Below are positions 7,402 to 18,653 of a stretch of 40,325 nt of DNA, piece after piece (position 1 is the stretch's first letter; each line of letters begins with the position of its first letter). The stretch comes from a virus. Location: positions 1-40,325 of IMG/VR virus record IMGVR_UViG_3300025098_000112. The stretch is one strand, 5' to 3'. Under the pieces are notes generated by a model. That model did not search any database, was not told where the DNA came from, and saw only the letters and a program-made list of their open reading frames with translations. Made by a program: the position numbers and the translations under genes.

Positions 7402-7943
7402 ACTTTATTGGCCTCGCTTCTTTCTATGGCACGTTTACGTTCTTCATCAGTCATGTCTGATATAGATCTACTCTTTACCTTTTCAATAAGCTCTAATGCA
7501 TTTTGCCATGAAAGCTTGAACCATTCTTTAACGTAGTCATTGGACATAGATTTAGCAAGGTCGTGTACATCTGACTCTGCCTTACGTCTGTCACTGAAAT
7601 GGGCATACCCTCGTAGGTGAAAGTCTCTGAAGGGACTAGACGTTTGATATGCATTAACCCTATCCTCAACATCAATAGCCATACCAATCTTAACCCAGTC
7701 ACGCCATGCAGGATTAGTCAGAGCATATACATAGCCTTCCTTGGTGTTAGAGTACTTACCTAACCCTTCAAAGGCTGCATCATTAAAAGATTTATATCGT
7801 CCCGGCTTATGTAAGTCATGCGTCTGTGGAATATACTTACCGTTGACCCACATACGGCTCTCATTTCTTTTACGCATAGCATCTGGGCTATCCTTGTAAT
7901 ACTTATCACGGCCTGTCGTATCGTTATGTTCTTTCTTATACAT
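7398..7943 (-). CDS. GIY-YIG superfamily nuclease-like protein (T5orf172/MUG113 type)
   Basis: 181 residues. The C-terminal half carries EGYVYALTNPAWRDWVKIG at about residue 69, followed by DVEDRVNAYQTSSP and a late FSDRRKAESDVHD. This is the GYVY...VKIG...R pattern of T5orf172/MUG113 domains, a branch of the GIY-YIG nuclease fold. The N-terminal 65 residues are charged and have no recognised domain. Its place between helicase and ThyX, like a homing-type gene inserted in a replication module, is typical, but no intron or recognition site is visible. It overlaps helicase by 4 nt and the upstream small gene by 8 nt. Nuclease activity is an inference. Confidence 0.8.
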   Translation of the reverse strand: MYKKEHNDTTGRDKYYKDSPDAMRKRNESRMWVNGKYIPQTHDLHKPGRYKSFNDAAFEGLGKYSNTKEGYVYALTNPAWRDWVKIGMAIDVEDRVNAYQTSSPFRDFHLRGYAHFSDRRKAESDVHDLAKSMSNDYVKEWFKLSWQNALELIEKVKSRSISDMTDEERKRAIERSEANKV

Positions 7944-8124
7944 GTTTTTCTTTCCCTATATAGGCTGAATAGTTTATTACTCGTCCTGTATTCCACCTTG
8001 CAGCTTCTGTCTCTGCTTCTTTTTCCGTACTGAATGTGCGTACCTCTGTGTCATACGTCCAAGGATCTTCCTTTCTTACTAAGGTGTATTCACCTTTCTC
8101 TATTTCAATCTGAACTGCGTACAT
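7936..8124 (-). CDS. Small protein of unknown function
   Basis: 62 residues (MYAVQIEIEKGEYTLVRKED...). The pattern reads as beta strands, then an alpha helix with FSTEKEAETEAARWNTG, resembling small phage proteins that carry a 'modified by time/tag' type fold, but no family is certain. ATG 8124 has AAAGGA upstream, lies inside the preceding gene (20-nt overlap) and its end overlaps the GIY-YIG gene by 8 nt. These couplings are the main evidence that it is real. Confidence 0.7.
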   Translation of the reverse strand: MYAVQIEIEKGEYTLVRKEDPWTYDTEVRTFSTEKEAETEAARWNTGRVINYSAYIGKEKHV

Positions 8125-8275
8125 CTTTAATCCTTTCTGATTCTAAACCCGCCTTAACTAAGGCAACAAACCCTACGTTAAAGATAGCTGCGAATATCTC
8201 AGGGGCACATTCTATTTGTAGAGTAGCGCTACCATCACGATGTTCTTCTACATCTATTACTTTTATCTCATTCAT
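8105..8275 (-). CDS. Small hydrophobic-helix protein of unknown function
   Basis: 56 residues from ATG 8275, beginning MNEIKVIDVEEHRDGSATLQ and containing FAAIFNVGFVALVKAGLES. A second in-frame ATG lies one codon upstream. GGAG precedes both, with the better spacing (6 nt) to 8275. It overlaps the upstream membrane-protein gene by 8 nt and the downstream gene by 20 nt. The N-terminal beta-like half plus a single helix is seen in small phage nucleotide-module proteins, but I cannot name a family. Confidence 0.6.
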   Translation of the reverse strand: MNEIKVIDVEEHRDGSATLQIECAPEIFAAIFNVGFVALVKAGLESERIKDVRSSD

Positions 8276-8423
8276 CATTCACTCCTATACATGGTAACAA
8301 GATAGACAGCTTGCAGTACTTAGGGTACTCATCATATGTCATAGCTATCAGCACGGGTGGTGCTGCTATAAGTAAAGCTACAATAGCTGACGCCTTGATT
8401 GCACCATTGATGTTACCCCTCAT
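8268..8423 (-). CDS. Small single-span membrane protein
   Basis: 51 residues, start ATG 8423 overlapping the thyX stop (TAATG). One hydrophobic segment (about residues 12-29, SAIVALLIAAPPVLIAMTY) is followed by a polar tail with two cysteines. It probably inserts in the inner membrane. No family is recognised. The overlap with thyX and with the following gene suggests that it belongs to the same transcript. Confidence 0.6.
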   Translation of the reverse strand: MRGNINGAIKASAIVALLIAAPPVLIAMTYDEYPKYCKLSILLPCIGVNDE

Positions 8424-9091
8424 TAGTCATTCTCCCTTAATGATTCCCATGACACAGGAAATAATTTTACCATTACACGATCAATCTCCCATGCTACCTC
8501 TGCTGTCTCTGCTTGTGTGTCAGGCGCACAGCGAAGCTTACACATGTCAGCAAAGGCATCCAAGCTACCTGACCAGTACCACTCAGTCATCATGCTCTGT
8601 GGTAGTACCATACGTGCTTGCTCTGGACATACACCCTTCTCAAGCAACTCTTTGTAGTCGTGTAGACAAACTTTGTGACAACTCTCAAGTAATAGATCCA
8701 TATCCTCATCATACCACTCGCCAGTACTGCCTTGCTTCTTATCCTCGCTACGTCCACGCCAAGACTTAGGCACATAAAACTCAGGCTCACTATCCACATA
8801 CCTACGGCTAATCTCATTCCACCGTAGGAACTTATGCTTGACTAGCTGTCTAGCTACAAAGACTGGTGCCTTGATGTGGAAGCTGGCAAAGCAATGCCCA
8901 AATGGGCTGATGTGCTTGTGATTGGCTAGGTATTGTATAAGCTTCTTATCCCTAACTTTCATGTGTTGCTTGAAGCTGTAAGCATCTGACTCTTCATAGT
9001 CCCACTCACTCTCCTTGCCAAAGCTTACTCGTGCAGCATTGACTACAGTCAAGTCGCTACCCATGCTACCTTTATATGTTACTTCAATCAT
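8423..9091 (-). CDS. thyX: Flavin-dependent thymidylate synthase ThyX, variant signature
   Basis: 222 residues. The fold signature is clear: VVNAARVSFGKES, HISPFGHCFASFHIKAPVFVARQ, then the signature helix and EISRRYVD. The classical ThyX motif RHRX7S is present as K85-H86-K87 with S95 seven residues on, so both arginines are lysine. ThyX makes dTMP from dUMP using methylenetetrahydrofolate, NADPH and FAD, and replaces or supplements host thymidylate synthesis during phage replication. A small basic gene overlaps its start and a small membrane protein its stop. It complements the ribonucleotide reductase and MazG genes downstream. Confidence 0.95.
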   Translation of the reverse strand: MIEVTYKGSMGSDLTVVNAARVSFGKESEWDYEESDAYSFKQHMKVRDKKLIQYLANHKHISPFGHCFASFHIKAPVFVARQLVKHKFLRWNEISRRYVDSEPEFYVPKSWRGRSEDKKQGSTGEWYDEDMDLLLESCHKVCLHDYKELLEKGVCPEQARMVLPQSMMTEWYWSGSLDAFADMCKLRCAPDTQAETAEVAWEIDRVMVKLFPVSWESLREND

Positions 9092-10006: not shown

Positions 10007-10928
10007 TGGATCTCCTTTGCGCTAATGCAGCAGACGCACCACTGAATGTGTTTACCAAGTAAGGCTTAACACTTTGGGGGTTGGTGTGTCCACTGACTTG
10101 CATAATACCTGCCATGTCTACGCCTGACTCTACCATCTCTGTAATGCCAGTACGCCGTAAGTCTCGTGCTTGTAGCACAAAAGGTAATCCTGCAGCTTCC
10201 TTAACTTGATTGACTAGCACATGTATCTCTTGATCGTCGTAAGGTGTGTGTGCCCCTGCTCTGGGGAGTACACGAGGCGCTACGTAGTCTTGGAAGTCAA
10301 AGTCTTCCTTCTGCTCTCGGAGCATCTGACACAAGCTTTCATCTGTAATAGGTAAGTGTACATCGGCCCTACGTTTACTCTGCTCTAAGTCTAGGCGCTT
10401 GGCATCTAAGTCTAGGTTGTCCCACCTGAGGAGACGCATGTCACCTACACGCTGTGCCCACTCGTATGCCATGTGAACGATCAGGCCAACGCTACGCCAC
10501 TTCCACTCAGAGTATGCGGTATCTAAGAAGAGACGCACCTGATCCTTAGTCCATTTAATTTTACGAGGCTTATCCGTTGTACGTTGTAACAATGTCACAG
10601 GGTTAGAGAGTATAGCCTCATGTCGTATGGATGTATTGAATACAATACTGAGACACGTAGCCATATAGTTAGAGCTACGTACCCCATGCACGAGAAGCCA
10701 CCTGTCATATGCGGTAGTCACATGTTTGAAACGTACATCCATAAGCTTGATGTTACCTAACTGCTTACCCTTTTGCACAGGGGTATCGCATACCTTAGAT
10801 AGGTACATCATGTAATCTTTCTGAGTACGAGGACGCAATGCAGCAAACTTAGGTGTGTGCATATAGAAGTCACATGCTTGCTTTATTGTGTGCTTACCTT
10901 TTAGTTCTACTACATTGCGTTTCGCCAT
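9993..10928 (-). CDS. int: Tyrosine recombinase / integrase
   Basis: 311 residues. An N-terminal SAM-like arm-binding domain (about 10-110: AALRPRTQKDYMMYL) precedes the catalytic domain. Visible active-site residues are the first Arg in WAQRVGDMRLLRW, Lys in QSKRRADVHLPI, the ARDLRRTG box, GHTNPQ with His, and the nucleophile Tyr in SVKPYL. The usual HxLR box reads RDLR, so Arg stands in for the first His. It would catalyse site-specific recombination, raising the possibility of lysogeny or genome resolution. No repressor or attP site is obvious nearby. ATG 10928 follows AAAGGAACCGCA. Confidence 0.9.
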   Translation of the reverse strand: MAKRNVVELKGKHTIKQACDFYMHTPKFAALRPRTQKDYMMYLSKVCDTPVQKGKQLGNIKLMDVRFKHVTTAYDRWLLVHGVRSSNYMATCLSIVFNTSIRHEAILSNPVTLLQRTTDKPRKIKWTKDQVRLFLDTAYSEWKWRSVGLIVHMAYEWAQRVGDMRLLRWDNLDLDAKRLDLEQSKRRADVHLPITDESLCQMLREQKEDFDFQDYVAPRVLPRAGAHTPYDDQEIHVLVNQVKEAAGLPFVLQARDLRRTGITEMVESGVDMAGIMQVSGHTNPQSVKPYLVNTFSGASAALAQRRSNDDK

Positions 10929-11199: not shown

Positions 11200-11514
11200 T
11201 TATCCGTTTACACAGTGGTCGTGGTTGATGTAGTAGGACACGCCAATCTCGTAGCTGTCATGATCGTACTGATACAGTGCAACCAAAGAGTCACATACAT
11301 TCTTGACTAGCTTGTACTTATCTTCGTCATCTAGCTCATGGCTGTACCCAAAGTCTACAGGGATAGCTGTCAGTACATCTTTCCAGTGACTGTATATATC
11401 AGTACCTGATTCAGTCTTCTCACCTGTCTTTTCGTAGCGCTGTTGAGTTACAAACACTACTGCATCGTGGTGATCCCATACTTTTACTTCTAAAGTTTGT
11501 GTCTCAATCTTCAT
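11200..11514 (-). CDS. Acidic protein of unknown function
   Basis: 104 residues from ATG 11514 (MKIETQTLEVKVWDHHDAVV). A longer version from TTG 11523 is possible. The body is mixed alpha/beta with many His, Asp and Tyr residues (YSHELDDEDKYKL, YQYDHDSYEIGV, INHDHC). ATG 11514 lies just after the stop of the upstream gene (7 nt from its first coding end). No domain is recognised. An anti-host role is plausible for its position in the small-gene strip but unsupported. Confidence 0.65.
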   Translation of the reverse strand: MKIETQTLEVKVWDHHDAVVFVTQQRYEKTGEKTESGTDIYSHWKDVLTAIPVDFGYSHELDDEDKYKLVKNVCDSLVALYQYDHDSYEIGVSYYINHDHCVNG

Positions 11515-11519
11515 ATCTA

Positions 11520-11861
11520 TCAATCCATTCTTGTTACATAGTGTCCATTGTCTGTAGGTAATGCTACCATACCATAGGGGTAAAAGTAAACATCACCCTT
11601 CTTGAGTTTGACCTTAGCAATAGGATTAAGGTCATCATCTTCTGGATAGGTGTATGTACCATTAGGTAATACCTTACCCTTGAACTGGTACAGCTTACCG
11701 AATCCATACGCTTCTGTCATGTGGTCTACAAGATCAAGACCTTCTTCGTCACCGCCATCTTCTACATAGTCGGCAACCCAATGCGGTAATAAACCCAACC
11801 ACTCTACGAGTTGATCTTGTGTGTAGTCAGGGTAAGCTTCTGTGTTAAGTAGTAGTCTCAT
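11520..11861 (-). CDS. Acidic protein of unknown function
   Basis: 113 residues beginning MRLLLNTEAYPDYTQDQLVE, with EDGGDEEGLDLVDH and a beta-rich C-terminal half (GTYTYPEDDDLNP, GDVYFYPYGMVALPTDNGHY). ATG 11861 overlaps the methyltransferase-like gene by 4 nt and is 28 nt downstream of a copy of the 17-bp palindrome. No family is recognised. The strong negative charge resembles DNA-mimic inhibitors, which is only a speculation. Confidence 0.65.
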   Translation of the reverse strand: MRLLLNTEAYPDYTQDQLVEWLGLLPHWVADYVEDGGDEEGLDLVDHMTEAYGFGKLYQFKGKVLPNGTYTYPEDDDLNPIAKVKLKKGDVYFYPYGMVALPTDNGHYVTRMD

Positions 11862-12631
11862 AGTACATTCTCCATTGTTAATTCTTTACTGTCGGACGGT
11901 CCGTCACCAGAGTTGAACTCATAAACTGCACGAGCAAAGCCACGGGGTGTAGCACTGCGAATGTTCTTAGTCTTAACAGACTTACCACCAAGTTTCAAGT
12001 GTTGTCTGCTGTGCCCTTGCTCTGGCTCTACTGGGTCAGTCCACGGCATAGTGAACCCATTGCCTGTCCAGAGGCATGTCTTCTTAGGGTATGCATCACG
12101 AGGTGCAATGTAGTCAGGCCACAAGGGATGCTCTGCCTCACTGTCAGCGATGTACTTGCCGTACTCATAGGGGTGGAATGAGTAGTTAGGTTTACGCCAC
12201 AACGTAGACAACACACTGACAGGATTCTCTATGAAGTAAGGTACGCCTAGCTCATTGAAGAACTGCGAGCACATCATAGCATAGCTTGCTGCTTTAGTCT
12301 GAAACTCAGGGTCACGCTTAGCCTTAGCCTTGAAGTGTGGCGCACCTGATACAGCCAAGTCAGTACACACAGGAAACGCCATGCCGAATACAACACTCTC
12401 AAACTGAAAGTTTACAGCTATCCTGTTGAGAGTGCTTTGATCGTGAAGGTCTGCATGAACATAACGGATCAGACCACCGCCCTCAAAATTATCTATACAT
12501 ATTTTTTCTGCATCATGCTGTATGTCAAAGGCATAGCAAATATATCCTGCTTCTGCCCACGGCTTGAGTGCCTCACCTGTGTAGTCATATAGGCTTATGA
12601 CATACTTACCTGCGTTAGGATTCGTCATCAT
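11858..12631 (-). CDS. DNA cytosine-C5 methyltransferase-like protein
   Basis: 257 residues from ATG 12631, preceded by AAGAAGGGAA. Motif I-like YVISLYDYTGEALKPWAEAG (10-29) is followed by FDIQ, then GMAFPVCTDLAVSG with the candidate catalytic C89 in a P-x-C setting, and PYFIENPVSVL (E135-N136), matching motifs IV and VI of C5-cytosine methyltransferases. It is shorter than bacterial Dcm enzymes, so the target-recognition part is small or absent. It may modify phage DNA against restriction. A copy of the palindrome is translated near the C-terminus (GDGPSDSKEL). The start lies within the end of a small upstream gene. Confidence 0.75.
   Translation of the reverse strand: MMTNPNAGKYVISLYDYTGEALKPWAEAGYICYAFDIQHDAEKICIDNFEGGGLIRYVHADLHDQSTLNRIAVNFQFESVVFGMAFPVCTDLAVSGAPHFKAKAKRDPEFQTKAASYAMMCSQFFNELGVPYFIENPVSVLSTLWRKPNYSFHPYEYGKYIADSEAEHPLWPDYIAPRDAYPKKTCLWTGNGFTMPWTDPVEPEQGHSRQHLKLGGKSVKTKNIRSATPRGFARAVYEFNSGDGPSDSKELTMENVL
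11890..11906. repeat. 17-bp palindrome copy, TGTCGGACGGTCCGTCA
   Basis: Inside the last codons of the methyltransferase-like gene and 28 nt upstream of the start at 11861. One arm base differs (T at position 15), so the arms mismatch there. Confidence 0.9.
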
Positions 12632-12770
12632 CAAAGTTCCCTTCTTCAAATATAACTTTATACCCTGCATCTAATAGTTCATGCGCTCTGTCAAGAGCAT
12701 TCTCACGATCAAGAGTCCACATCTTATTATAATAGAAACCATCCTTGCCTATCGTAGCTACGTAGTACAT
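12615..12770 (-). CDS. Small acidic protein of unknown function
   Basis: 51 residues: MYYVATIGKDGFYYNKMWTL, then a helix (DRENALDRAHELLDAGYKV) and an acidic end (EEGNFDDDES). GAGG lies upstream of ATG 12770, one base after the previous stop. The end overlaps the methyltransferase-like gene by 17 nt. The strand-helix-strand pattern resembles the small protein at 7936-8124. No family name can be given. Confidence 0.6.
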   Translation of the reverse strand: MYYVATIGKDGFYYNKMWTLDRENALDRAHELLDAGYKVIFEEGNFDDDES

Positions 12771-12771
12771 C

Positions 12772-13137
12772 TCACGATACCTCTTCAAACATTTCTAAAG
12801 CTTGATTGTGTGTAAGCTTCCACTGCTTGTCACTAGTCAAAGACTTAACTTGCCACGGCATTTTCTTAGCGTTGGTGTTGTACCCTACGAGAGTAACCTT
12901 CTGCCCACCAATCTCAGAGATACGAGTAGTGTCTAACTTGTAGAACTGTGCAAAATGTGTAAGCGCAATCTGCTCTTGTGTATCCGCACCATCAAGCAAT
13001 ACCTGTACCTTGTATGTAGCTTCACCGCCTGAGTAGGAGCAGTTACCTACCTTGATAGTCACATCGTGTATGCCAGCATTCTCTAATGCTTCCTGCATTG
13101 CTTCACGTATTTGTCTTAGCTTTTGTTTGTCAAACAT
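12772..13137 (-). CDS. Conserved-looking phage protein of unknown function
   Basis: 121 residues. The first 20 form a helix (MFDKQKLRQIREAMQEALEN). Two beta-rich parts follow, with VGNCSYSGGEATYKV and a stretch around GGQKVTLVGYNTNAKKMPW, and the end is VKSLTSDKQWKLTHNQ. The final part looks like a small SH3-like domain often fused in phage unknowns. AAAGGATTACATT precedes ATG 13137 and a palindrome copy sits 24 nt upstream of the start. No function is known to me. Confidence 0.7.
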   Translation of the reverse strand: MFDKQKLRQIREAMQEALENAGIHDVTIKVGNCSYSGGEATYKVQVLLDGADTQEQIALTHFAQFYKLDTTRISEIGGQKVTLVGYNTNAKKMPWQVKSLTSDKQWKLTHNQALEMFEEVS

Positions 13138-13161
13138 AATGTAATCCTTTCAATGAGTTAG

Positions 13162-13178
13162 TGACGGACGGTCCGACA
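13162..13178. repeat. 17-bp palindrome copy, TGACGGACGGTCCGACA
   Basis: Between two small genes and 24 nt upstream of the start at 13137. The next 14 bp (13179-13192, GTAAAGCCAGACCG) are identical to those beside the copy at 16494, so a unit of about 31 bp is repeated. Confidence 0.9.
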
Positions 13179-13207
13179 GTAAAGCCAGACCGCCCTGCTA
13201 GGGAGTG

Positions 13208-13435
13208 CTACCCTGCGAAGTGTTGCAAGCGGCGCTCAGTGTTACGGTTACGCTTGTGCTCAAAGTACACAGTGCGTTTGCCTAAGTGATAGGCAGTCAT
13301 GCAATCGCCTAGCTCACGGCGCAAGCCACGGCTGACCACCTTACGCTTACGTGTCAGGCCCTTGATGCCAGCGAAGTTGAAGCGAAAACCTTTAGTACCA
13401 TCGTTAAGTTTTTTGGTTGCGAATAATACGAACAT
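13208..13435 (-). CDS. Small basic protein of unknown function
   Basis: 75 residues, strongly basic (LTRKRKVVSRGLRRELG, HKRNRNTERRLQHFAG), so it may bind nucleic acid. ATG 13435 is preceded by GGAG in the end of the upstream gene, and start and stop overlap closely. The following 70 bp contain a palindrome copy. No family is recognised. Confidence 0.65.
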   Translation of the reverse strand: MFVLFATKKLNDGTKGFRFNFAGIKGLTRKRKVVSRGLRRELGDCMTAYHLGKRTVYFEHKRNRNTERRLQHFAG

Positions 13436-13436
13436 A

Positions 13437-13574
13437 TCATTTCTCCTGTGTGAGTTCGTTACGGATCTGGGTTAGTAGTTCTTTTAGTTTGGCATCGTTT
13501 GCCATACGTGTACTTGGCAGTATTTTTTCACACATGTCAAGTACCTTCAAGTTAAGTGCATTAGAAATGCTCAT
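13437..13574 (-). CDS. Small helical protein of unknown function
   Basis: 45 residues, MSISNALNLKVLDMCEKILP and a charged helix (DAKLKELLTQIRNELTQEK). ATG 13574 overlaps the previous stop (ATGA) and has GGAGG nine bases upstream, one of the best ribosome binding sites of this strip. The small size and lack of motifs allow no function call. Confidence 0.6.
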   Translation of the reverse strand: MSISNALNLKVLDMCEKILPSTRMANDAKLKELLTQIRNELTQEK

Positions 13575-13852
13575 GCTGTAAGACCTCCGTCAATCACGAT
13601 AAGCTTAGGTTTCTTAGCAACAGCGCTGGGCTTTGTCAAGAGGCAGTAGATATCTGCATAGAAAGCAGGGTCGTGATCCTTGAGGTGTAGTGACGGACGG
13701 TCCGACAGTACATCCCACCACAGCATGTCGTATTCTGTAGACAACATGTCGTATATGTTAGATGCATTCTCTTCACTGCGACATGCAGCGACAAGGCAGG
13801 TATCTGCCTCATCGTAATCCATAACGCATACATAGTGCATGTTTGGTTTCAT
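13571..13852 (-). CDS. Protein of unknown function containing a translated palindrome copy
   Basis: 93 residues, beginning MKPNMHYVCVMDYDEADTCL. The middle part reads VLSDRPSLHL where the 17-bp palindrome is translated, and the end is KKPKLIVIDGGLTA. AAAGGATATTACTTA precedes ATG 13852. The pattern of strand, helix (RSEENASNIYDML) and strand is like other small proteins of this arm. No family is recognised. Confidence 0.65.
   Translation of the reverse strand: MKPNMHYVCVMDYDEADTCLVAACRSEENASNIYDMLSTEYDMLWWDVLSDRPSLHLKDHDPAFYADIYCLLTKPSAVAKKPKLIVIDGGLTA
13691..13707. repeat. 17-bp palindrome copy, TGACGGACGGTCCGACA
   Basis: Lies in the middle of the 93-residue gene, where it is translated as LSDRPS. 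It is not close to a start codon. Confidence 0.9.
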
Positions 13853-13872
13853 TAAGTAATATCCTTTCGTTG

Positions 13873-14487
13873 TTATGTCATTACTACAGCATCAACATGA
13901 TAGCGTGACACTGCATCACCAGTAGGCAGGGACTTGTTCATACCACCACGATCAGCAACAAAGTTGCACCATGTGTCCCACCAGTATTCGGAACCCTTGC
14001 GGCGGCATAGCTTGACGTACTCACGTATCTTTTTGAGACGTACTTCTTGCGATGCTTTCTTGTTGATACGCAAGGCTGACTCACTCAACCCTAACGCCCT
14101 GACATTGTGTCTGTCAAGACATGCTACTTGAAAGCCTAGCATCTGACCAATGAAGCCAGCCTTGACCATACCAATGCTAGGTATACGCATAAACAGATCT
14201 ACCACAGCTTGTGCACCATCAATGGTGTCACATCCAGCAGTCTCACGTATGTTAAGCATGAGTGTGTGCAACTCTACCTTGTGCTCTTGTGCATAGGTAA
14301 TGCCTTGAGCCTTAGTACTGCTGACCCACTTGGACATGATGCCATGCAGCTTGATAGACTTGCGTTGCTCTATCACACGAGACAACGGCATGTTGATCGT
14401 GCATAAGGTGAACTCAATCACGTCATACAATCCATCAGGGGATTGCAATGCGTGTTGTACGATTTCTGTGCAGTCACGTTGGTACAT
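13873..14487 (-). CDS. Protein with helix-hairpin-helix / HhH-GPD-like segment
   Basis: 204 residues. At about 105-140 the sequence has FMRIPSIGMVKAGFIGQM followed by VACLDRHNVRALGL. This resembles the hairpin (LPGIGxxxA) and the following D-x-H-x-x-R region of HhH-GPD base-excision enzymes (endonuclease III family). No Fe-S cysteine loop is evident at the end, so it may be a small or diverged DNA-binding glycosylase-like protein. The C-terminus is basic and aromatic (CRRKGSEYWWDTWCNF). AGGAG lies upstream of ATG 14487, and a palindrome copy sits 21 nt before the start. Enzyme activity is uncertain. Confidence 0.6.
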   Translation of the reverse strand: MYQRDCTEIVQHALQSPDGLYDVIEFTLCTINMPLSRVIEQRKSIKLHGIMSKWVSSTKAQGITYAQEHKVELHTLMLNIRETAGCDTIDGAQAVVDLFMRIPSIGMVKAGFIGQMLGFQVACLDRHNVRALGLSESALRINKKASQEVRLKKIREYVKLCRRKGSEYWWDTWCNFVADRGGMNKSLPTGDAVSRYHVDAVVMT

Positions 14488-14508
14488 AGGGAAGCACTCC
14501 TGTTGTTA

Positions 14509-14525
14509 TGTCGGATCGTCCGACA
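14509..14525. repeat. 17-bp palindrome copy, TGTCGGATCGTCCGACA
   Basis: In the 43-bp spacer between the genes at 14531 and 14487, 21 nt upstream of the latter start. The centre reads TCG instead of CGG. Confidence 0.9.
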
Positions 14526-14530
14526 GTAAG

Positions 14531-14947
14531 TTAAGTCGTTGATAAGTAACGTATTTTAGGTTTGATGTCTGTATCAACCACCTTAGATAAGCATACCATA
14601 TCTGATTTGTCAATAGGTTCCAGAGTTTTGCTATCAACAAAGCTTGTGAATTTGTACGGGTTGTACGTTGCCTTGCCATGTAAGCGCCAAGCTGGACCCA
14701 TCAATGGGTCACTATCATCTCGCTTGCTGTAGCCACTGACCTGTATGAAATCACCAAGCGTACCACGCACAAAGGCATGCACATTTTTCTTGCCCTCACG
14801 TAGTACACGCTTACGTCCAGACTGACGCACCACAAATTGCGCATCATCTATCCACACTTCATCAGCGTGAAAGAGTACACGCCCTGTCTTAGTATTACGG
14901 ACAGAGAATGTATGCTTGTGCAGGTTCCAGTAAACTTCAACTCGCAT
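14531..14947 (-). CDS. Conserved phage protein of unknown function
   Basis: 138 residues: MRVEVYWNLHKHTFSVRNTK, a beta-rich body with DDAQFVVRQSGRKRVL and KNVHAFVRGTLGDF, then ATYNPYKFTSFVD. I recognise the KNVHAFVRG segment as recurring in unrelated phage genomes, without a known role. GGGGGA precedes ATG 14947, and a palindrome copy is 31 nt upstream. The beta-rich fold and net positive charge leave nucleic-acid binding possible. Confidence 0.7.
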   Translation of the reverse strand: MRVEVYWNLHKHTFSVRNTKTGRVLFHADEVWIDDAQFVVRQSGRKRVLREGKKNVHAFVRGTLGDFIQVSGYSKRDDSDPLMGPAWRLHGKATYNPYKFTSFVDSKTLEPIDKSDMVCLSKVVDTDIKPKIRYLSTT

Positions 14948-14960
14948 GGTAGTCCCCCAT

Positions 14961-15419
14961 TTATGCAGATTGTTTTAGTGACGGACGGTCCGACACAACA
15001 CCATTACATACTAGGGATGAGCGCCATCCGTTAAGTTTCAATTCTATGTCAAGCTCCTGCCATCCAAAGGACAAAACCACGAAGGCTCTACGTAATTGTA
15101 GACACAGCACGATGTCACCCACCGACATACTAGGGGAGGGCCTGATGGTCGTGCGCCTAAGCTTGCCACTGCCGTAGCCATTGCACTCATCAAAGATCCA
15201 CTCAAGTACGTCATCCATGTCATGACTAGTCTGCGCTGTCATCACACCCATATGTAAGAAAGATGTCGGCTCATAGAAATCTTTAGCTAAGGCTTTCTGT
15301 ATTACATCCACGCCATTTCCTGCAGGTAAACTACGCAAGGACACATACATATCTATGTCATCCTGCCTAATGATTTCACTCTTGGGTTGATAGACTAAGA
15401 ACGATTGCGATGCGGTCAT
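14961..15419 (-). CDS. Protein of unknown function, C-terminus passes through a palindrome copy
   Basis: 152 residues, beginning MTASQSFLVYQPKSEIIRQD. The last 15 residues (CNGVVSDRPSLKQSA) are encoded across the palindrome, which suggests the repeat arrived late and extended or replaced the original end. GAGGAG precedes ATG 15419. No domain is recognised. The body mixes helices (DVIQKALAKDFYEP) and a hydrophobic strand region (VGDIVLCLQLRRAFVVLSFG). Confidence 0.65.
   Translation of the reverse strand: MTASQSFLVYQPKSEIIRQDDIDMYVSLRSLPAGNGVDVIQKALAKDFYEPTSFLHMGVMTAQTSHDMDDVLEWIFDECNGYGSGKLRRTTIRPSPSMSVGDIVLCLQLRRAFVVLSFGWQELDIELKLNGWRSSLVCNGVVSDRPSLKQSA
14979..14995. repeat. 17-bp palindrome copy, TGACGGACGGTCCGACA
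   Basis: In the last codons of the 152-residue gene (read VSDRPS) and 31 nt upstream of the start at 14947. Confidence 0.9.
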
Positions 15420-15423
15420 GGTA

Positions 15424-15603
15424 TTACTCCTCTTGCGGGTTAAAATAGGGCATTGACAAGTTATCCATGAGGATATCTTTCACTTCTCCACCAGTCATGC
15501 CAAGCATTCCAGCATATGTCAAGATAGAAATGTTAGGGTTGAGATCATAGAAGTCACGTATCTCATCATCAGTCCACTCATGTATGTATTTTAGATCAGG
15601 CAT
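15424..15603 (-). CDS. Small acidic helical protein
   Basis: 59 residues from ATG 15603 (MPDLKYIHEWTDDEIRDFYD). An in-frame extension upstream exists but lacks a ribosome binding site, while AAAAGGAATCATGAC directly precedes this ATG. The same leader precedes the gene at 16128. The remainder (LTYAGMLGMTGGEVKDILMD) resembles a small helix-turn-helix-like domain. It could be a small regulator, but this is a weak structural impression only. Confidence 0.6.
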   Translation of the reverse strand: MPDLKYIHEWTDDEIRDFYDLNPNISILTYAGMLGMTGGEVKDILMDNLSMPYFNPQEE

Positions 15604-15760
15604 GTCATGATTCCTTTTCAGTGATTTCATTTTGTTAGGTCCAACGTTGGACTTAAGTTTCAATTGAGCAGGTAAAAATACACTTGGGTTGTAGACTGTC
15701 GGCCTATCTCCACACCATTGATTATGTATAGTGAAAGTTAAATATAACTTCCAAGTGTAC
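15604..15760 (-). other. Spacer with 14-bp palindrome and no convincing gene
   Basis: This 157-bp stretch holds the perfect palindrome GTCCAACGTTGGAC (15639-15652), 35 nt upstream of the 15603 start. That is the same relative place that the 17-bp palindromes take before other genes, but with a different sequence. An open frame continues upstream in phase with the 59-residue gene, without start signals. A region near 15696 (CTGTCGGCC) may be a decayed half of the 17-bp palindrome. Confidence 0.5.
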
Positions 15761-15871
15761 TTATATCTGCCTAACAAACAGGCCAGTATTTGCTAAGGCT
15801 GCTGGGCCACGCCATTTTACGAAGGCTTTTGAAGTGTCGGACGGTCCGACAGTAATGCCAAACCGCCCCAT
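15761..15871 (-). CDS. Doubtful 36-residue reading frame across a palindrome copy
   Basis: Starts at ATG 15871, five bases after the upstream stop, and reads MGRFGITVGPSDTSKAFVKW and so on for 36 residues. The palindrome at 15835-15851 is translated as TVGPSDT. No good ribosome binding site is seen, so this may simply be spacer. It is listed because the neighbouring genes are all tightly packed. Confidence 0.3.
   Translation of the reverse strand: MGRFGITVGPSDTSKAFVKWRGPAALANTGLFVRQI
15835..15851. repeat. 17-bp palindrome copy, TGTCGGACGGTCCGACA
   Basis: In the spacer after the 83-residue gene. The flank at 15852-15865 matches the 14-bp flank of the 13162 and 16494 copies at 12 of 14 positions. 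Confidence 0.9.
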
Positions 15872-15876
15872 GATTG

Positions 15877-16128
15877 TCAATAGATTTCGTCTAGCTCTTC
15901 ATCAAAGCCGAACTCTTCGTCCCACTCTTCGGGTGTCATACCTGACATCAAGAACTCACGCTGTTCTGCTGACAGGTCAGGCATAACATTCTGTATTAGA
16001 TCACCTGATGCAAGCCAGTACTCAATCACACCTTGAGTGGTAGGCAAGAGCATGTTGTTTATCTTGCCAGTCATCATAGACTTTTTGTGCACCAAAACTT
16101 TATTCTCTGCTATATGTTCTATCTGCAT
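15877..16128 (-). CDS. Small acidic protein of unknown function
   Basis: 83 residues from ATG 16128 (MQIEHIAENKVLVHKKSMMT). A longer frame runs upstream through the palindrome, but AAAAGGAATCATGAC sits just before this ATG. The C-terminus is very acidic (TPEEWDEEFGFDEELDEIY), like that of small phage inhibitors or RNA-polymerase-binding proteins. No family is recognised. A palindrome copy is 39 nt upstream. Confidence 0.65.
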   Translation of the reverse strand: MQIEHIAENKVLVHKKSMMTGKINNMLLPTTQGVIEYWLASGDLIQNVMPDLSAEQREFLMSGMTPEEWDEEFGFDEELDEIY

Positions 16129-16129
16129 G

Positions 16130-16330
16130 TCATGATTCCTTTTTACTTGGTTGTTTTGAAGTTGAAGTGTCGGACGATCCGACAGTAGAAGTCCCATAAC
16201 TGTCAGCCATCCATGCTAGATTGTCAAGGGGTTTGGGATGTTTGCGCTGCTGCATATTACACAGCCACCTGCTACGCCACACCTTATCAGCACGGCGAGC
16301 GTACCTGTCACGTCTGCTCACACCTAACAT
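16130..16330 (-). CDS. Small basic protein whose end overlaps a palindrome and the next leader
   Basis: 66 residues from ATG 16330 (MLGVSRRDRYARRADKVWRS), preceded by GGGGGGTG. The N-terminal half is arginine-rich. The C-terminal 25 residues (GTSTVGSSDTSTSKQPSKKE) are encoded by the palindrome and the ribosome binding site of the next gene. The tail is low-complexity, so the original stop may have been lost when the repeat module was inserted. No family is recognised. Confidence 0.55.
   Translation of the reverse strand: MLGVSRRDRYARRADKVWRSRWLCNMQQRKHPKPLDNLAWMADSYGTSTVGSSDTSTSKQPSKKES
16168..16184. repeat. 17-bp palindrome copy, TGTCGGACGATCCGACA
   Basis: In the end of the 66-residue gene and 39 nt upstream of the start at 16128. 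The centre reads CGA instead of CGG. Confidence 0.9.
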
Positions 16331-16335
16331 GTACG

Positions 16336-16464
16336 TCACCCCCCATGCATGGCATAGAGCATGCCACAAAAGAACATCATACCTGACGTGCTGACGTAGG
16401 TAAGAAAGTAAGCAAAGTTTTGAAGGCGAGTAGGTCTAAGAATGTATTTTGTACGATGGCGCAT
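16336..16464 (-). CDS. Small membrane-type protein
   Basis: 42 residues: MRHRTKYILRPTRLQNFAYF followed by a hydrophobic segment (LTYVSTSGMMFFCGMLYAM). A basic N-terminus and one transmembrane span suggest insertion in the inner membrane. ATG 16464 follows ACAAGGAATTGACCC, the same leader as at 16779, and a palindrome copy is 29 nt upstream. Confidence 0.5.
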   Translation of the reverse strand: MRHRTKYILRPTRLQNFAYFLTYVSTSGMMFFCGMLYAMHGG

Positions 16465-16493
16465 GGGTCAATTCCTTGTGTGTGTGTTTGAAG

Positions 16494-16510
16494 TGTCGGA
16501 CGGTCCGACA
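16494..16510. repeat. 17-bp palindrome copy, TGTCGGACGGTCCGACA
   Basis: In the spacer between the genes at 16540 and 16464, 29 nt upstream of the latter start. It carries the 14-bp flank GTAAAGCCAGACCG at 16511-16524. Confidence 0.9.
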
Positions 16511-16539
16511 GTAAAGCCAGACCGTTGATACTGGTATCA

Positions 16540-16779
16540 TTACCAAGCTTCTGATTGGATCTCTTTGCGATGGTCATCATAAAGCTTTACAGCTTTGTGC
16601 ATACGCTTGAGGGCGGTTTCATACTTGCGACAACCTTGTATTTCTTGAAGTATTTCTTTGAGGGTCCAACATTCAACCAGCACATCCCAACCGTCTTCTT
16701 CGTAATGCGCCTTAGCGTGATCCTGAATTTGTGTGGCAAAGTAAAGCGGGACATTAAATGTTTTTTCTAGATCTGTCAT
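16540..16779 (-). CDS. Small helical protein of unknown function
   Basis: 79 residues, MTDLEKTFNVPLYFATQIQD and then mostly helix (LVECWTLKEILQEIQGC, YETALKRMHKAVKLYDDHRK). ATG 16779 follows ACAAGGAATTGACCCA. It is the second gene of the leftward arm. No family is recognised. Small helical early proteins like this often act on host factors, but nothing specific is visible. Confidence 0.65.
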   Translation of the reverse strand: MTDLEKTFNVPLYFATQIQDHAKAHYEEDGWDVLVECWTLKEILQEIQGCRKYETALKRMHKAVKLYDDHRKEIQSEAW

Positions 16780-16849
16780 TGGGTCAATTCCTTGTATGTA
16801 TGTGAGAGAGAGTGATGCGCCCCGCTGTGATGCAGGGCGCTTGACTGTG

Positions 16850-17437
16850 TTAGCCTACGATTTCAGCGTGTAGGGCCTTGAGGAAAGCGCTGGTGTTCAA
16901 CCCGTTGCTTTCGAGGGCGGCTTTTACGAATGTCGCAAGCTCCGCTTCAGTCTGAAATTGCTTGGTGTCGGACGGTCCGTCAGTAGCAGCCTCTGGCTTG
17001 GCTTGGGCTTTTCCTGCAGATGTATTACCTGCAGACTTAGGCGCTTTCGGCTCCGCTGGCTTGCTTGCCTTGGTGATCCGCTTACGGATGGCGCTCATCC
17101 CTAGACCGTCAAGTTTCCCGTCAGTGTTTAAGCGCTGCACAAGCTCCCAGTTTTCCGCAATCTTTTTGCAATCATTGTAATCTTGCCGACTAATAGTCGT
17201 ATGCTGAGCCATTGCTTGGCCGAAAAGCTTGTCAGATTTGTACAAGGGACGAAGCTGGATCACAAGCAATCCGATTTCTTTGTAGCAATCCAATTGCTGC
17301 TCTTGCAAGAGCCACATACGATCATGAACCGCTTCCATCTGAGCAAAGGCGGCGCTTGCTGTGAACGTCTGACCGTTGTGTGTTACCTTGCCGTCCAAGT
17401 GTACTTTTGCGTTTGTGTTTGTTTTTGCGTTTGTCAT
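16850..17437 (-). CDS. First gene of the left arm, helical protein with Ala/Lys/Pro-rich linker
   Basis: 195 residues from ATG 17437, chosen because AAGGAA precedes it and the upstream part has no start signal. The N-terminal 120 residues are helical (FAQMEAVHDRMWLLQEQQLD, RQDYNDCKKIAENW, MSAIRKRITKASK), somewhat like phage proteins with a DUF3102-type helical domain. A low-complexity linker (KPAEPKAPKSAGNTSAGKAQ) then carries a translated palindrome copy (TDGPSDT), followed by a C-terminal helical piece. A TTGACA-type promoter sits 51-79 bp upstream. Being first in the arm, it may be an early regulator, which is only positional inference. Confidence 0.65.
   Translation of the reverse strand: MTNAKTNTNAKVHLDGKVTHNGQTFTASAAFAQMEAVHDRMWLLQEQQLDCYKEIGLLVIQLRPLYKSDKLFGQAMAQHTTISRQDYNDCKKIAENWELVQRLNTDGKLDGLGMSAIRKRITKASKPAEPKAPKSAGNTSAGKAQAKPEAATDGPSDTKQFQTEAELATFVKAALESNGLNTSAFLKALHAEIVG
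16966..16982. repeat. 17-bp palindrome copy, TGTCGGACGGTCCGTCA
   Basis: Inside the 195-residue gene, in its low-complexity linker, translated as TDGPSDT. Confidence 0.9.
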
Positions 17438-17487
17438 CGAAGTATTCCTTTTTTGCTGTGGCCGGTGTTGGCCGTTTCGATGCAATC

Positions 17488-17516
17488 AATCTGGCCGATG
17501 GTCGAGGGAATGTCAA
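17488..17516 (-). promoter_or_regulatory. Candidate sigma70 promoter for the left arm
   Basis: On the minus strand TTGACA (17516-17511) is followed after 17 bases by CAGATT (17493-17488), a perfect -35 with a weak -10, as is common in alphaproteobacteria. It points at the 195-residue gene that opens the left arm. Confidence 0.5.
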
Positions 17517-17556
17517 CGGCTTTTGGTGCGCATTATGCGCAAGGAAAAGGAAGCAG

Positions 17557-17573
17557 TGTCGGACGGTCCGACA
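17557..17573. repeat. 17-bp palindrome copy, TGTCGGACGGTCCGACA
   Basis: The copy nearest the control region, 40 bp upstream of the -35 box of the leftward promoter candidate and 119 nt before the first gene of the arm. Confidence 0.9.
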
Positions 17574-17669
17574 GTAGGGTAGGGTAAAAGCAGAACATCC
17601 GGTGAGAACGAATCAGGAACAGCCTCGTGCGTGATCATGTGTGTGATCATATGTGCATGCATGTGTGTT

Positions 17670-17678
17670 TGTGCATAA
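17670..17678 (-). promoter_or_regulatory. DnaA-box match TTATGCACA
   Basis: The minus strand matches the bacterial DnaA consensus TTATNCACA exactly. A second identical copy lies at 17971-17979. Confidence 0.4.
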
Positions 17679-17970
17679 GCGATGCATGATCGCATCACGC
17701 TGCAGATGTGCGCATAGCAGGCCTATATGTGCGGCTTGCAGATACACAATCGGTAGAAAAAGCGTGTAAAAACAAGCGTTTAGCCCTATGCACATGCGCA
17801 GAATGCACACACACGGCCCCACATACACCCCCCTGCGTGGGCCACCCCCCCGGTGTACGTACGTATATACATACTCTGCAACAGAACTGGATTTTACTTT
17901 TCATGTACGAGCACTTACACACAACTATACCGTGTAAACAGTAATGTTATACTATAACAATGCTTAAAGC

Positions 17971-17979
17971 TGTGCATAA
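17971..17979 (-). promoter_or_regulatory. DnaA-box match TTATGCACA
   Basis: Second copy of the nonamer, same strand as the one at 17670, at the edge of the A/T-rich part of the control region. Confidence 0.4.
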
Positions 17980-17981
17980 AG

Positions 17982-18018
17982 TTGTAACATAGATCACGTT
18001 TTGTTACAATTGTTACAA
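17982..18018 (+). repeat. Cluster of TTGTTACAA repeats with overlapping CRP-like dyad
   Basis: TTGTTACAA occurs twice in perfect tandem (18001-18009, 18010-18018). An inverted copy of its core (TTGTAACA) is at 17982-17989. The dyad TGTAA-CATAGA-TCACG at 17983-17998 fits the CRP half-sites TGTGA/TCACA at 8 of 10 positions. The cluster ends 27 bp before a TTGACA box, a usual place for a regulator. Confidence 0.5.
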
Positions 18019-18045
18019 ATGCATCACTTTTTGGCGAAACAAGGA

Positions 18046-18073
18046 TTGACAATGGGGGTGCTTTGTGTAAAAC
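18046..18073 (+). promoter_or_regulatory. Candidate rightward promoter 1
   Basis: TTGACA (18046-18051), 16-bp spacer, TAAAAC (18068-18073). The -10 is imperfect (4 of 6). It is downstream of the TTGTTACAA cluster, so it may be a regulated start. Confidence 0.4.
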
Positions 18074-18092
18074 TACGTAGTAGTAGTAGGTA

Positions 18093-18344
18093 AGTTAAAC
18101 TTAAAAGTTAAACTCTTTAGAATACAACTAATAATACTTAACTTAAATAACTAAACTATATACAGTTACACTTATATCATTGGACTTAGGAAGAGTTAGA
18201 CATTAAAGTTAAACTTTAATGTTAGACTTACAAGTTGACAGCTTTATATTTGTATGATAGTATACTTATATGAGTGGTATTGATAATTATAACTATAAAT
18301 ATACCACTATACTTTAACTTAACGTGTGACTTTAAAGTTTAACT
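18093..18344. repeat. AGTTAAACT repeats and 23-bp palindrome
   Basis: The 9-mer AGTTAAACT occurs at 18093-18101, 18106-18114 and 18207-18215, and on the other strand at 18336-18344. The third copy is the centre of a perfect palindrome of two 11-base arms around one base (18200-18222, arm ACATTAAAGTT). The repeats flank the promoter at 18235, so they look like operator or iteron sites. Confidence 0.5.
18235..18263 (+). promoter_or_regulatory. Candidate rightward promoter 2 for the right arm
   Basis: A perfect TTGACA (18235-18240), 17-bp spacer and TAGTAT (18258-18263). The start would be near 18270, about 130 bases before the first gene of the arm. An 8-bp inverted repeat (AGTGGTAT 18273-18280, ATACCACT 18301-18308) begins right after it. 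Confidence 0.55.
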
Positions 18345-18398
18345 ATCACTAATTTTTTAGTCGCACGTAATTTCCCTTGTAATTACCCCTTGACTCTT

Positions 18399-18653
18399 AT
18401 GAAAAAACAAGTAAAACTATACCCTAGTGAGGATGTATTAGTACAATTCTATAGTGCTTTAGCGTCTAATAACTCTGATGCACTTAAAAAGGTACATATT
18501 CCTAAGAGTGATGTATTCTATGTACGTGAAAAGATATTTCAGGACACTGGAGAGAAGTATACGTTAGATAGAGTTGAAAGAGCTATGTACTTAGAGGGTA
18601 TGATTGACTCTAGAGACGTACTTGATCCTAAAAGAAAGAGGGACTGGGAATGA
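18399..18653 (+). CDS. First gene of the right arm, protein of unknown function
   Basis: 84 residues from ATG 18399 (MKKQVKLYPSEDVLVQFYSA). A TTG start three codons earlier is possible, and neither has a clear ribosome binding site. The protein is charged and helical (SNNSDALKKVHIPKSDVFYV, TLDRVERAMYLEGM) and could be a small DNA-binding or regulatory protein. Its stop overlaps the next start (ATGA). No family is recognised. Confidence 0.65.
   Translation: MKKQVKLYPSEDVLVQFYSALASNNSDALKKVHIPKSDVFYVREKIFQDTGEKYTLDRVERAMYLEGMIDSRDVLDPKRKRDWE

Follow-up and report, generated by a model that had tools for sequence, protein, structure and literature searches.

In the lac system, auxiliary operators lie one upstream of the promoter and one in the downstream gene, and repression proceeds by looping or by roadblock. 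Phage N15 carries dispersed palindromic partition sites, and the start-associated sequences of Cluster K mycobacteriophages are repeated words just upstream of start codons, the short form of which is not palindromic; we know of no cognate protein for them. The window examined here (the whole 40,325-base stretch of virus record IMGVR_UViG_3300025098_000112) carries ten copies of the palindrome TGWCGGA-N3-TCCGWCA in its early-gene strip, and these are probably the operators of a dimeric autoregulator of a new family, a roadblock-type repressor of the early operon. The candidate regulator is encoded by the strip's first gene. Matched versions of site and protein among related viruses suggest an undescribed switch in the control of early genes.

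As the first-pass annotation of the window had proposed, these sites resemble the stoperators of mycobacteriophage L5 (Cluster A): one site is scattered in many copies over promoter regions and short intergenic spaces, and control of both initiation and elongation is proposed. The comparison holds for layout only. L5 sites are reported to be asymmetric 13-mers that are oriented with transcription and bound by a monomer with two DNA-binding domains (PMC9283540), whereas those of the window and its relatives are palindromes of 14–17 bp without a single orientation to transcription. No credible Pfam or PHROG match links the candidate protein to the L5 repressor gp71 or to any other described family. 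The likeness to the lac auxiliary operators also lies in layout, with one operator upstream of a promoter and another within the downstream gene, but here up to ten operators extend across 6 kb. Repeated words just before start codons are likewise shared with the Cluster K sequences. In a literature search whose scope left out most subscription papers and preprints, no paper on palindromic sites or a repressor of HMO-2011-type phages, or on an immunity repressor of marine phages, was found, and the terms 'repressor', 'promoter' and 'palindrom' are absent from the main text of PMC9038755 and PMC6918029. Six palindrome strings sought in the literature gave one string in one Hedgehog-protein paper, surely by chance.

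Ten palindromes in the early strip

The early strip, made up of small minus-strand genes, is flanked by the integrase gene and by a control region in which no genes are clear. Within it, the ten palindromes are real, exact and far above chance. All lie where the first-pass annotation had placed them, without a mismatch and within 5.7 kb, and its statement that the other 34 kb held none is correct for the exact pattern; one degenerate copy, with two mismatches, lies in the integrase gene. When up to two mismatches are allowed, the window has 11 matches, compared with a mean of 0.52 and a maximum of 3 in 100 dinucleotide-preserving shuffles, and the exact pattern did not occur in 200 first-order Markov simulations. 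The sites and the elements beside them, in the order of the minus strand, are as follows.

17557-17573: operator 1, preceding the TTGACA box of the presumed early promoter
17511-17516, minus strand: TTGACA, −35-like box of the presumed early promoter, recognised by conserved spacing
17488-17493: CAGATT, weak −10-like box accompanying this TTGACA
16850-17437, minus strand: gene of the candidate binder, 195 amino acids, proposed from co-occurrence, covariation and a structure model
16966-16982: operator 2, within the linker-coding part of the candidate gene
16494-16510: operator 3, 29 nt upstream of the ATG at 16464
16168-16184: operator 4, 39 nt from the start of the next gene if this is the in-frame ATG at 16128 (alternative start, 16132)
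15835-15851: operator 5, intergenic
14979-14995: operator 6, in the 3ʹ-terminal part of 14961-15419; the phrog_586 gene begins 31 nt downstream
14509-14525: operator 7, 21 nt upstream of the ATG at 14487
13691-13707: operator 8, within the open reading frame (ORF) 13571-13852
13162-13178: operator 9, 24 nt upstream of the ATG at 13137
11890-11906: operator 10, at the 3ʹ end of the methyltransferase gene and 28 nt upstream of the ATG at 11861
10315-10331: degenerate copy with two mismatches, in the integrase gene; perfect in the relatives L012, L033 and L034

Six of the ten operators thus lie 21–39 nt upstream of probable minus-strand start codons, four of them intergenic and two where the preceding gene ends. 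The remaining four comprise two within genes (13691 and 16966) and two intergenic copies whose next starts are 119 and 231 nt away. Site-by-site reading agrees with the earlier observation that variation is limited to the centre (positions 8–10) and to positions 3 and 15. The centre is CGG in eight copies, TCG in that at 14509 and CGA in that at 16168; position 3 is A in the copies at 13162, 13691 and 14979, and position 15 is T in those at 11890 and 16966.

Sites of this kind extend well beyond the window. They are held in position in the near relatives L012, L017, L020 and L032-L034 (L-numbers denote the loci collected), and a pattern scan of viral contigs found further phages with the same core and different flanks. 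Additionally, when 294 loci of at least 3 kb were searched for repeated gapped palindromes without a preset pattern, many relatives proved to carry other dispersed palindromes, namely GTCCAA-N2-TTGGAC, GTCCGA-N2-TCGGAC and GTCCCA-N3-TGGGAC; after a control triplet shuffle, 0 of 294 loci had any. Among cultured phages, CRP-1 and CRP-345 each have four GTCCAA-type sites in the stretch read, and HMO-2011 has five AGTCCG-N4-CGGACT sites around gp74. The scan of relatives for early-strip enrichment that the first-pass annotation had suggested gave a positive result: in the loci of 62 representative phages, the early strip contains 8.45 exact sites per 10 kb and the remainder 0.21. A start codon with a ribosome-binding-like word follows within 30 nt of 39% of 241 sites, as against 16% of random strip positions, in a count that left out eight of the 62 representatives because they had fewer than two sites.

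The first operator also keeps a regular distance from a promoter-like box. TTGACA lies 32–45 nt past the first site in all 26 distinct stretches of window-type phages, which come from the 55 of 64 window-type loci that have an upstream site; the chance expectation is about 0.012 per 25 nt, and the spacing was first noticed by reading the sequences and then counted. CRP-1-type phages have a promoter-like module, TTGATA-N17-TATAAC around AGTGAAAGT, 38–53 nt upstream of a site in 16 of the 33 representatives listed, and in the three GTCCCA-type phages read the first operator nearly touches TTGACA. When promoters were sought uniformly in front of the first genes, no consistent picture emerged.

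The protein of the first early gene

By its sequence, the 16850-17437 product belongs to a previously unnamed protein family without a credible match in Pfam, PHROG, NCBIfam or the PDB, where searches with family members returned only chance-level hits, each for a single member (best, 0.004). The first-pass annotation had recognised no repressor gene; this remains true for known families, but the first gene of the strip is now a candidate. Homologues of this protein occur in the window-type carriers, and the counterpart in CRP-1-like phages is gp01. Profile comparison shows that the two main subfamilies are related: A3 (23 sequences) and A2 (16 sequences) align as homologues along 130 columns (hhalign: probability 90.9, E 1.2e-6; 0.6 and 0.3 for reversed controls). 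Another member is HMO-2011 gp74 (E 1.5e-17), the second of the annotated plus-strand genes at the head of that phage's early strip. Two genome-contig scans yielded no bacterial contig that encodes a member, and hence nothing that points to a host or a prophage. A host-encoded regulator was considered and dropped, since the site type changes along with the phage gene.

Protein and sites occur together with great regularity. A family member was found with the two profiles in 109 loci (64 window-type and 45 CRP-1-type), and 107 of these carry sites of their own subfamily (63 of 64 and 44 of 45, respectively). At least three own-type sites are present in 55 of the window-type and 44 of the CRP-1-type loci, and one or two in eight of the window-type loci. 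The two loci without own-type sites are L353, where the contig ends inside the gene, and L082, which has a third type of its own, CCCCAA-CG-TTGGGG, in five copies. The site type of the other subfamily never exceeds one copy per locus and was met in four loci; isolated words of another type accompany the main type in the window, L039, L058, L325 and L335.

The association is seen from either direction of retrieval. Of 44 loci retrieved by protein similarity, 36 have at least three sites, seven have one or two, and one has none, while the 11 loci that were retrieved by DNA pattern only and are not near relatives of the window (L009, L014, L018, L021-L023, L193, L209, L230, L240 and L282) all encode a member. 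Among 470 loci of at least 3 kb, 103 have at least three sites and a member, 22 have sites only, 12 have a member with fewer than three sites, and 333 have neither. In the sites-only group, the lack of a member is accounted for in the window cut-outs L002-L004, in the HMO-2011 locus L302 (whose member is in L356) and in others that start or end near the first site; this does not apply to L207, L238, L443 and the GTCCCA-type L400, L449 and L478, and L011 could be assigned to neither set. No P value is given for this co-occurrence, because the method of retrieval biases the collection of loci. In cultured phages, HMO-2011, CRP-1 and CRP-345 have both member and sites; CRP-2, CRP-3, CRP-207, CRP-235, CRP-603, CRP-738 and HTVC033P show neither of them in the stretches read, and the top-scoring protein of these seven against the profiles is CRP-603 gp01 (E 0.077).

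Furthermore, bases in the sites covary with residues in the protein. In window-type members with Arg or Lys at residue 84 (17 rows, many of them close relatives), G stands at half-site position 1 in 170 of 170 half-sites; in those with Phe or Met (seven rows), it does so in 1 of 68, and the Phe84 and Met84 proteins form two distant branches. These 24 rows are what is left of the 64 window-type loci once 36 duplicates, three loci without the motif and one with fewer than four half-sites are removed. In a column test that took its labels from the sites, and that repeats the earlier test labelled by the residue itself, 21 proteins with G sites and 8 with non-G sites are told apart by two gap-free columns: residue 84 and a variable one close to the C-terminus. 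We infer that residue 84 sits in a recognition helix. Among CRP-1-type proteins, residue 120 (L048 numbering) is Arg in 24 and Lys in five, all 29 with GTCCAA sites, and Asn in three, all with GTCCGA sites; one of the 33 proteins, that of L082, was dropped because its sites are untyped. The three Asn120 proteins lie on three separate branches, and residue 121 likewise separates GTCCAA from GTCCGA proteins. In our reading of the alignment, L082, with its CCCCAA half-sites, has Asp at the position aligned with residue 84, where the others have Arg or Lys. Taken with the co-occurrence, this covariation strongly supports DNA binding by the 16850-17437 protein, which is very probable on computational grounds.

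In the models of both subfamilies, a linker of low confidence joins a helical N-terminal domain to a pair of C-terminal helices; the mean predicted local distance difference test (pLDDT) score is about 75. An operator lies in frame in the linker-coding part of the gene not only in the window (16966-16982) but also in aligned CRP-1-type proteins, where it encodes SNVG or variant residues, and in five GTCCCA-type proteins.

Possible regulation and competing explanations

A mechanism of the following kind would fit the arrangement. The protein dimer would read two TGWCGGA half-sites three bases apart. One operator stands some 40 bp before the −35-like box of the presumed early promoter; further copies are within the gene for the regulator itself and at gene boundaries, in many cases directly ahead of ribosome-binding sites. 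Bound upstream and within the gene, the protein may reduce initiation, perhaps through looping, and at the sites farther downstream it would block the elongating polymerase, as at stoperators or auxiliary operators. It would thereby limit its own operon, and it could hold early genes silent in lysogens. Such silencing is suggested because most carriers encode an integrase: among representatives with 6.5 kb or more of downstream sequence, 24 of 26 CRP-1-type and 9 of 13 window-type ones do so there, and in the other four window-type representatives the integrase is elsewhere in the record. On balance, repression or roadblock appears to be the main effect of the protein.

Several observations weigh against this interpretation. 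The loci are not independent samples. Of the 64 window-type loci, nine have no site 20–260 nt before the gene; five of these start within 43 nt of the gene, and L209/L323 (one contig), L324 and L353 do not. L207, L238, L443, L400, L449 and L478 have at least three site-like words and no member by the profiles used, and homology of the GTCCCA-type first-gene proteins to the family was not established by profile comparison with reversed-profile controls. Some Lys120 phages, such as L071 and L078, have sites with one GTCCGA arm (GTCCGA-CG-TTGGAC), so residue 120 is not an absolute gate; such mixed arms are as expected if each subunit reads its own half. A fold search against the PDB returned nothing at E 0.001 or better and no known DNA-binding fold. 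The top match of a second look at the window protein, the DNA-binding domain of SopB (Z 4.6, root-mean-square deviation 3.7, 78 residues), falls inside the tool's stated noise for helical models and is not listed for the CRP-1-type model; in a viral fold library the leading matches were S4S2E1 (E 2.1e-3, without a name) and a DUF3102 protein (E 0.21), neither significant. As to lysogeny, no integrase was found on the L009 and L022 contigs (19 and 26 kb), and CRP-603, CRP-2, CRP-207, CRP-235 and CRP-738 bear an integrase and, in the stretches read, neither sites nor member. CRP-3 has been shown to integrate (PMC6918029). Since CRP-3 and these integrase-bearing kin show neither part, the system is unnecessary for integration and is no general need of lysogeny in this phage group.

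The main rival keeps the same protein and sites and makes the protein an activator or an early-to-late switch, either Cro-like or acting as a class I activator. Binding is better supported than the sign of regulation, and a site upstream of a −35 box could serve activation equally, which counts further against repression: the first operator precedes TTGACA in every one of the 26 distinct stretches and nearly abuts it in the three GTCCCA-type phages, and the gene stands at the head of the early operon, with which it is co-transcribed. Copies within genes and at many downstream boundaries are not needed for activation, however, and we consider it unlikely, though far from negligible. Far less credit can be given to a partition or DNA-organising protein of the ParB type with dispersed, centromere-like sites. 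Like ParB, SopB and KorB, the system has palindromic sites, dispersed as in phage N15, and the helical domain of the protein gives the weak SopB match. In SopB, residue R219 lies outside the helix-turn-helix. Its replacement (R219A) is reported to abolish specific binding to sopC (PMC7205306). Unlike those proteins, the candidate has only about 200 residues and its sites are tied to promoter-like boxes and gene starts; moreover, an integrase is present, no ParA-type family was found among the 53 ORFs of the window (Pfam, E 0.001; the record may be incomplete), and no ParB-family sequence match appeared among the 10, 16 and 23 members scanned or, by profile, among PDB sequences.

The palindromes might otherwise act as RNA hairpins in the early messenger, protein-bound or not, in translation control, processing or stability. 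Many sites stand 15–25 nt before a start codon, and the window type permits a 7-bp stem with a 3-base loop, but the arms do not vary as paired strands. The early strips of the 62 representative phages hold 225 exact sites and 66 with one arm base changed, a change that breaks the pair in 56 and leaves G-U in 10, whereas double arm changes are compensated in three cases and uncompensated in five. Single changes are confined to one or two positions per half-site type. The 2-base spacer of other types does not allow a full stem, the first site is upstream of the TTGACA box and therefore outside the transcript of the presumed promoter, and Rfam gave no match up to E 1 in window positions 11500-18400. 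Hairpins are accordingly improbable, and the argument of the first-pass annotation from unpaired arm changes is upheld; the binding site for a dimeric protein that it proposed is well supported computationally by these uncompensated changes and by the covariation with one early protein. An intrinsic terminator was also rejected, as no T-run follows the palindromes (judged by eye only). Least probable of all, the palindromes might be recombination or boundary repeats that favour the shuffling of genes, protein binding then being secondary or lacking altogether: the sites do lie at gene boundaries, and one off-type site is in a segment that the relative L033 seems to lack, but such repeats leave both the covariation with protein residues and the promoter-box spacing unexplained.

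If the sites are operators of an autoregulatory repressor, a wider possibility arises, which we put forward tentatively and rate below even likelihood. This would be a new, modular immunity system of marine phages, in which the first early gene encodes a small regulator, with operators spread over the operon and the coding sequence of the regulator itself, a new DNA-binding domain, a residue-base code (residue 84 for the outer base, residue 120 for the inner) and immunity groups. Related phages would then be split into such groups, and all operators would have to change with the protein. The residue-base pairs would be a natural experiment in which one protein and many scattered operators shift specificity together. 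Early-gene control, and perhaps the choice between lytic growth and lysogeny, is now testable in cultured phages through HMO-2011 gp74, CRP-1 gp01 and CRP-345 gp01.

Related phages and neighbouring features

The placement of the phage as HMO-2011-type by the first-pass annotation is sound because of its DNA polymerase, which is 55.6% identical to that of HMO-2011 over the whole length (tblastn) and 68.0–70.6% identical to those of the Roseobacter phages CRP-207, CRP-2 and CRP-603. DnaJ-type zinc motifs also bear it out, since DNA_pol_A and DnaJ_CXXCXGXG are both present among the window ORFs (Pfam). The window additionally contains one site of the type found in CRP-1-like phages.

15639-15652: off-type site GTCCAA-CG-TTGGAC, single copy

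Its flanks match those of L070 and L071 sites, and L033 seems to be without this segment, as its spacing is shorter. Recombination with a phage of different specificity is its probable origin. A second perfect palindrome, TGCGCATTATGCGCA, lies at 17527-17541 between operator 1 and TTGACA, and similar words occur in L321, L328 and L338.

At 14531-14947 the window encodes a homologue of mycobacteriophage L5 gp82 (PF25735, phrog_586), which also occurs in Bacillus, Streptomyces and Roseobacter phages. The phrog_586 protein was rejected as the binder, as the site carriers L009, L014, L018 and L021-L023 are without it in the stretch examined.

The GTCCCA-N3-TGGGAC phages (L372, L417, L426, L427 and L429; also L400 at 7908-8432) have different early proteins and a layout that appears alike by eye; in all five of the former, an operator lies within the early gene. 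L207, which has no family member by the profiles used, carries four TGTCGGAT-N2-TCCGAC words at 151, 2605, 4964 and 8541, spaced 2.4–3.6 kb apart. Several CRP-1-type phages have a GTCCAAGGTTGGAC site within the integrase gene (for example L301 at 6868, L306 at 7079 and L048 at 14633), and relatives of the window likewise have a site in that gene; these may be operators or may reflect conservation of the protein. Finally, an inverted repeat resembling ATACTTT-AGTG-AAAGTAT lies between −35- and −10-like boxes about 50 nt upstream of sites in L039, L037, L063 and others, and HMO-2011 has the same kind of inverted-repeat promoter module near record position 20–60; this repeat may be the operator of another regulator.

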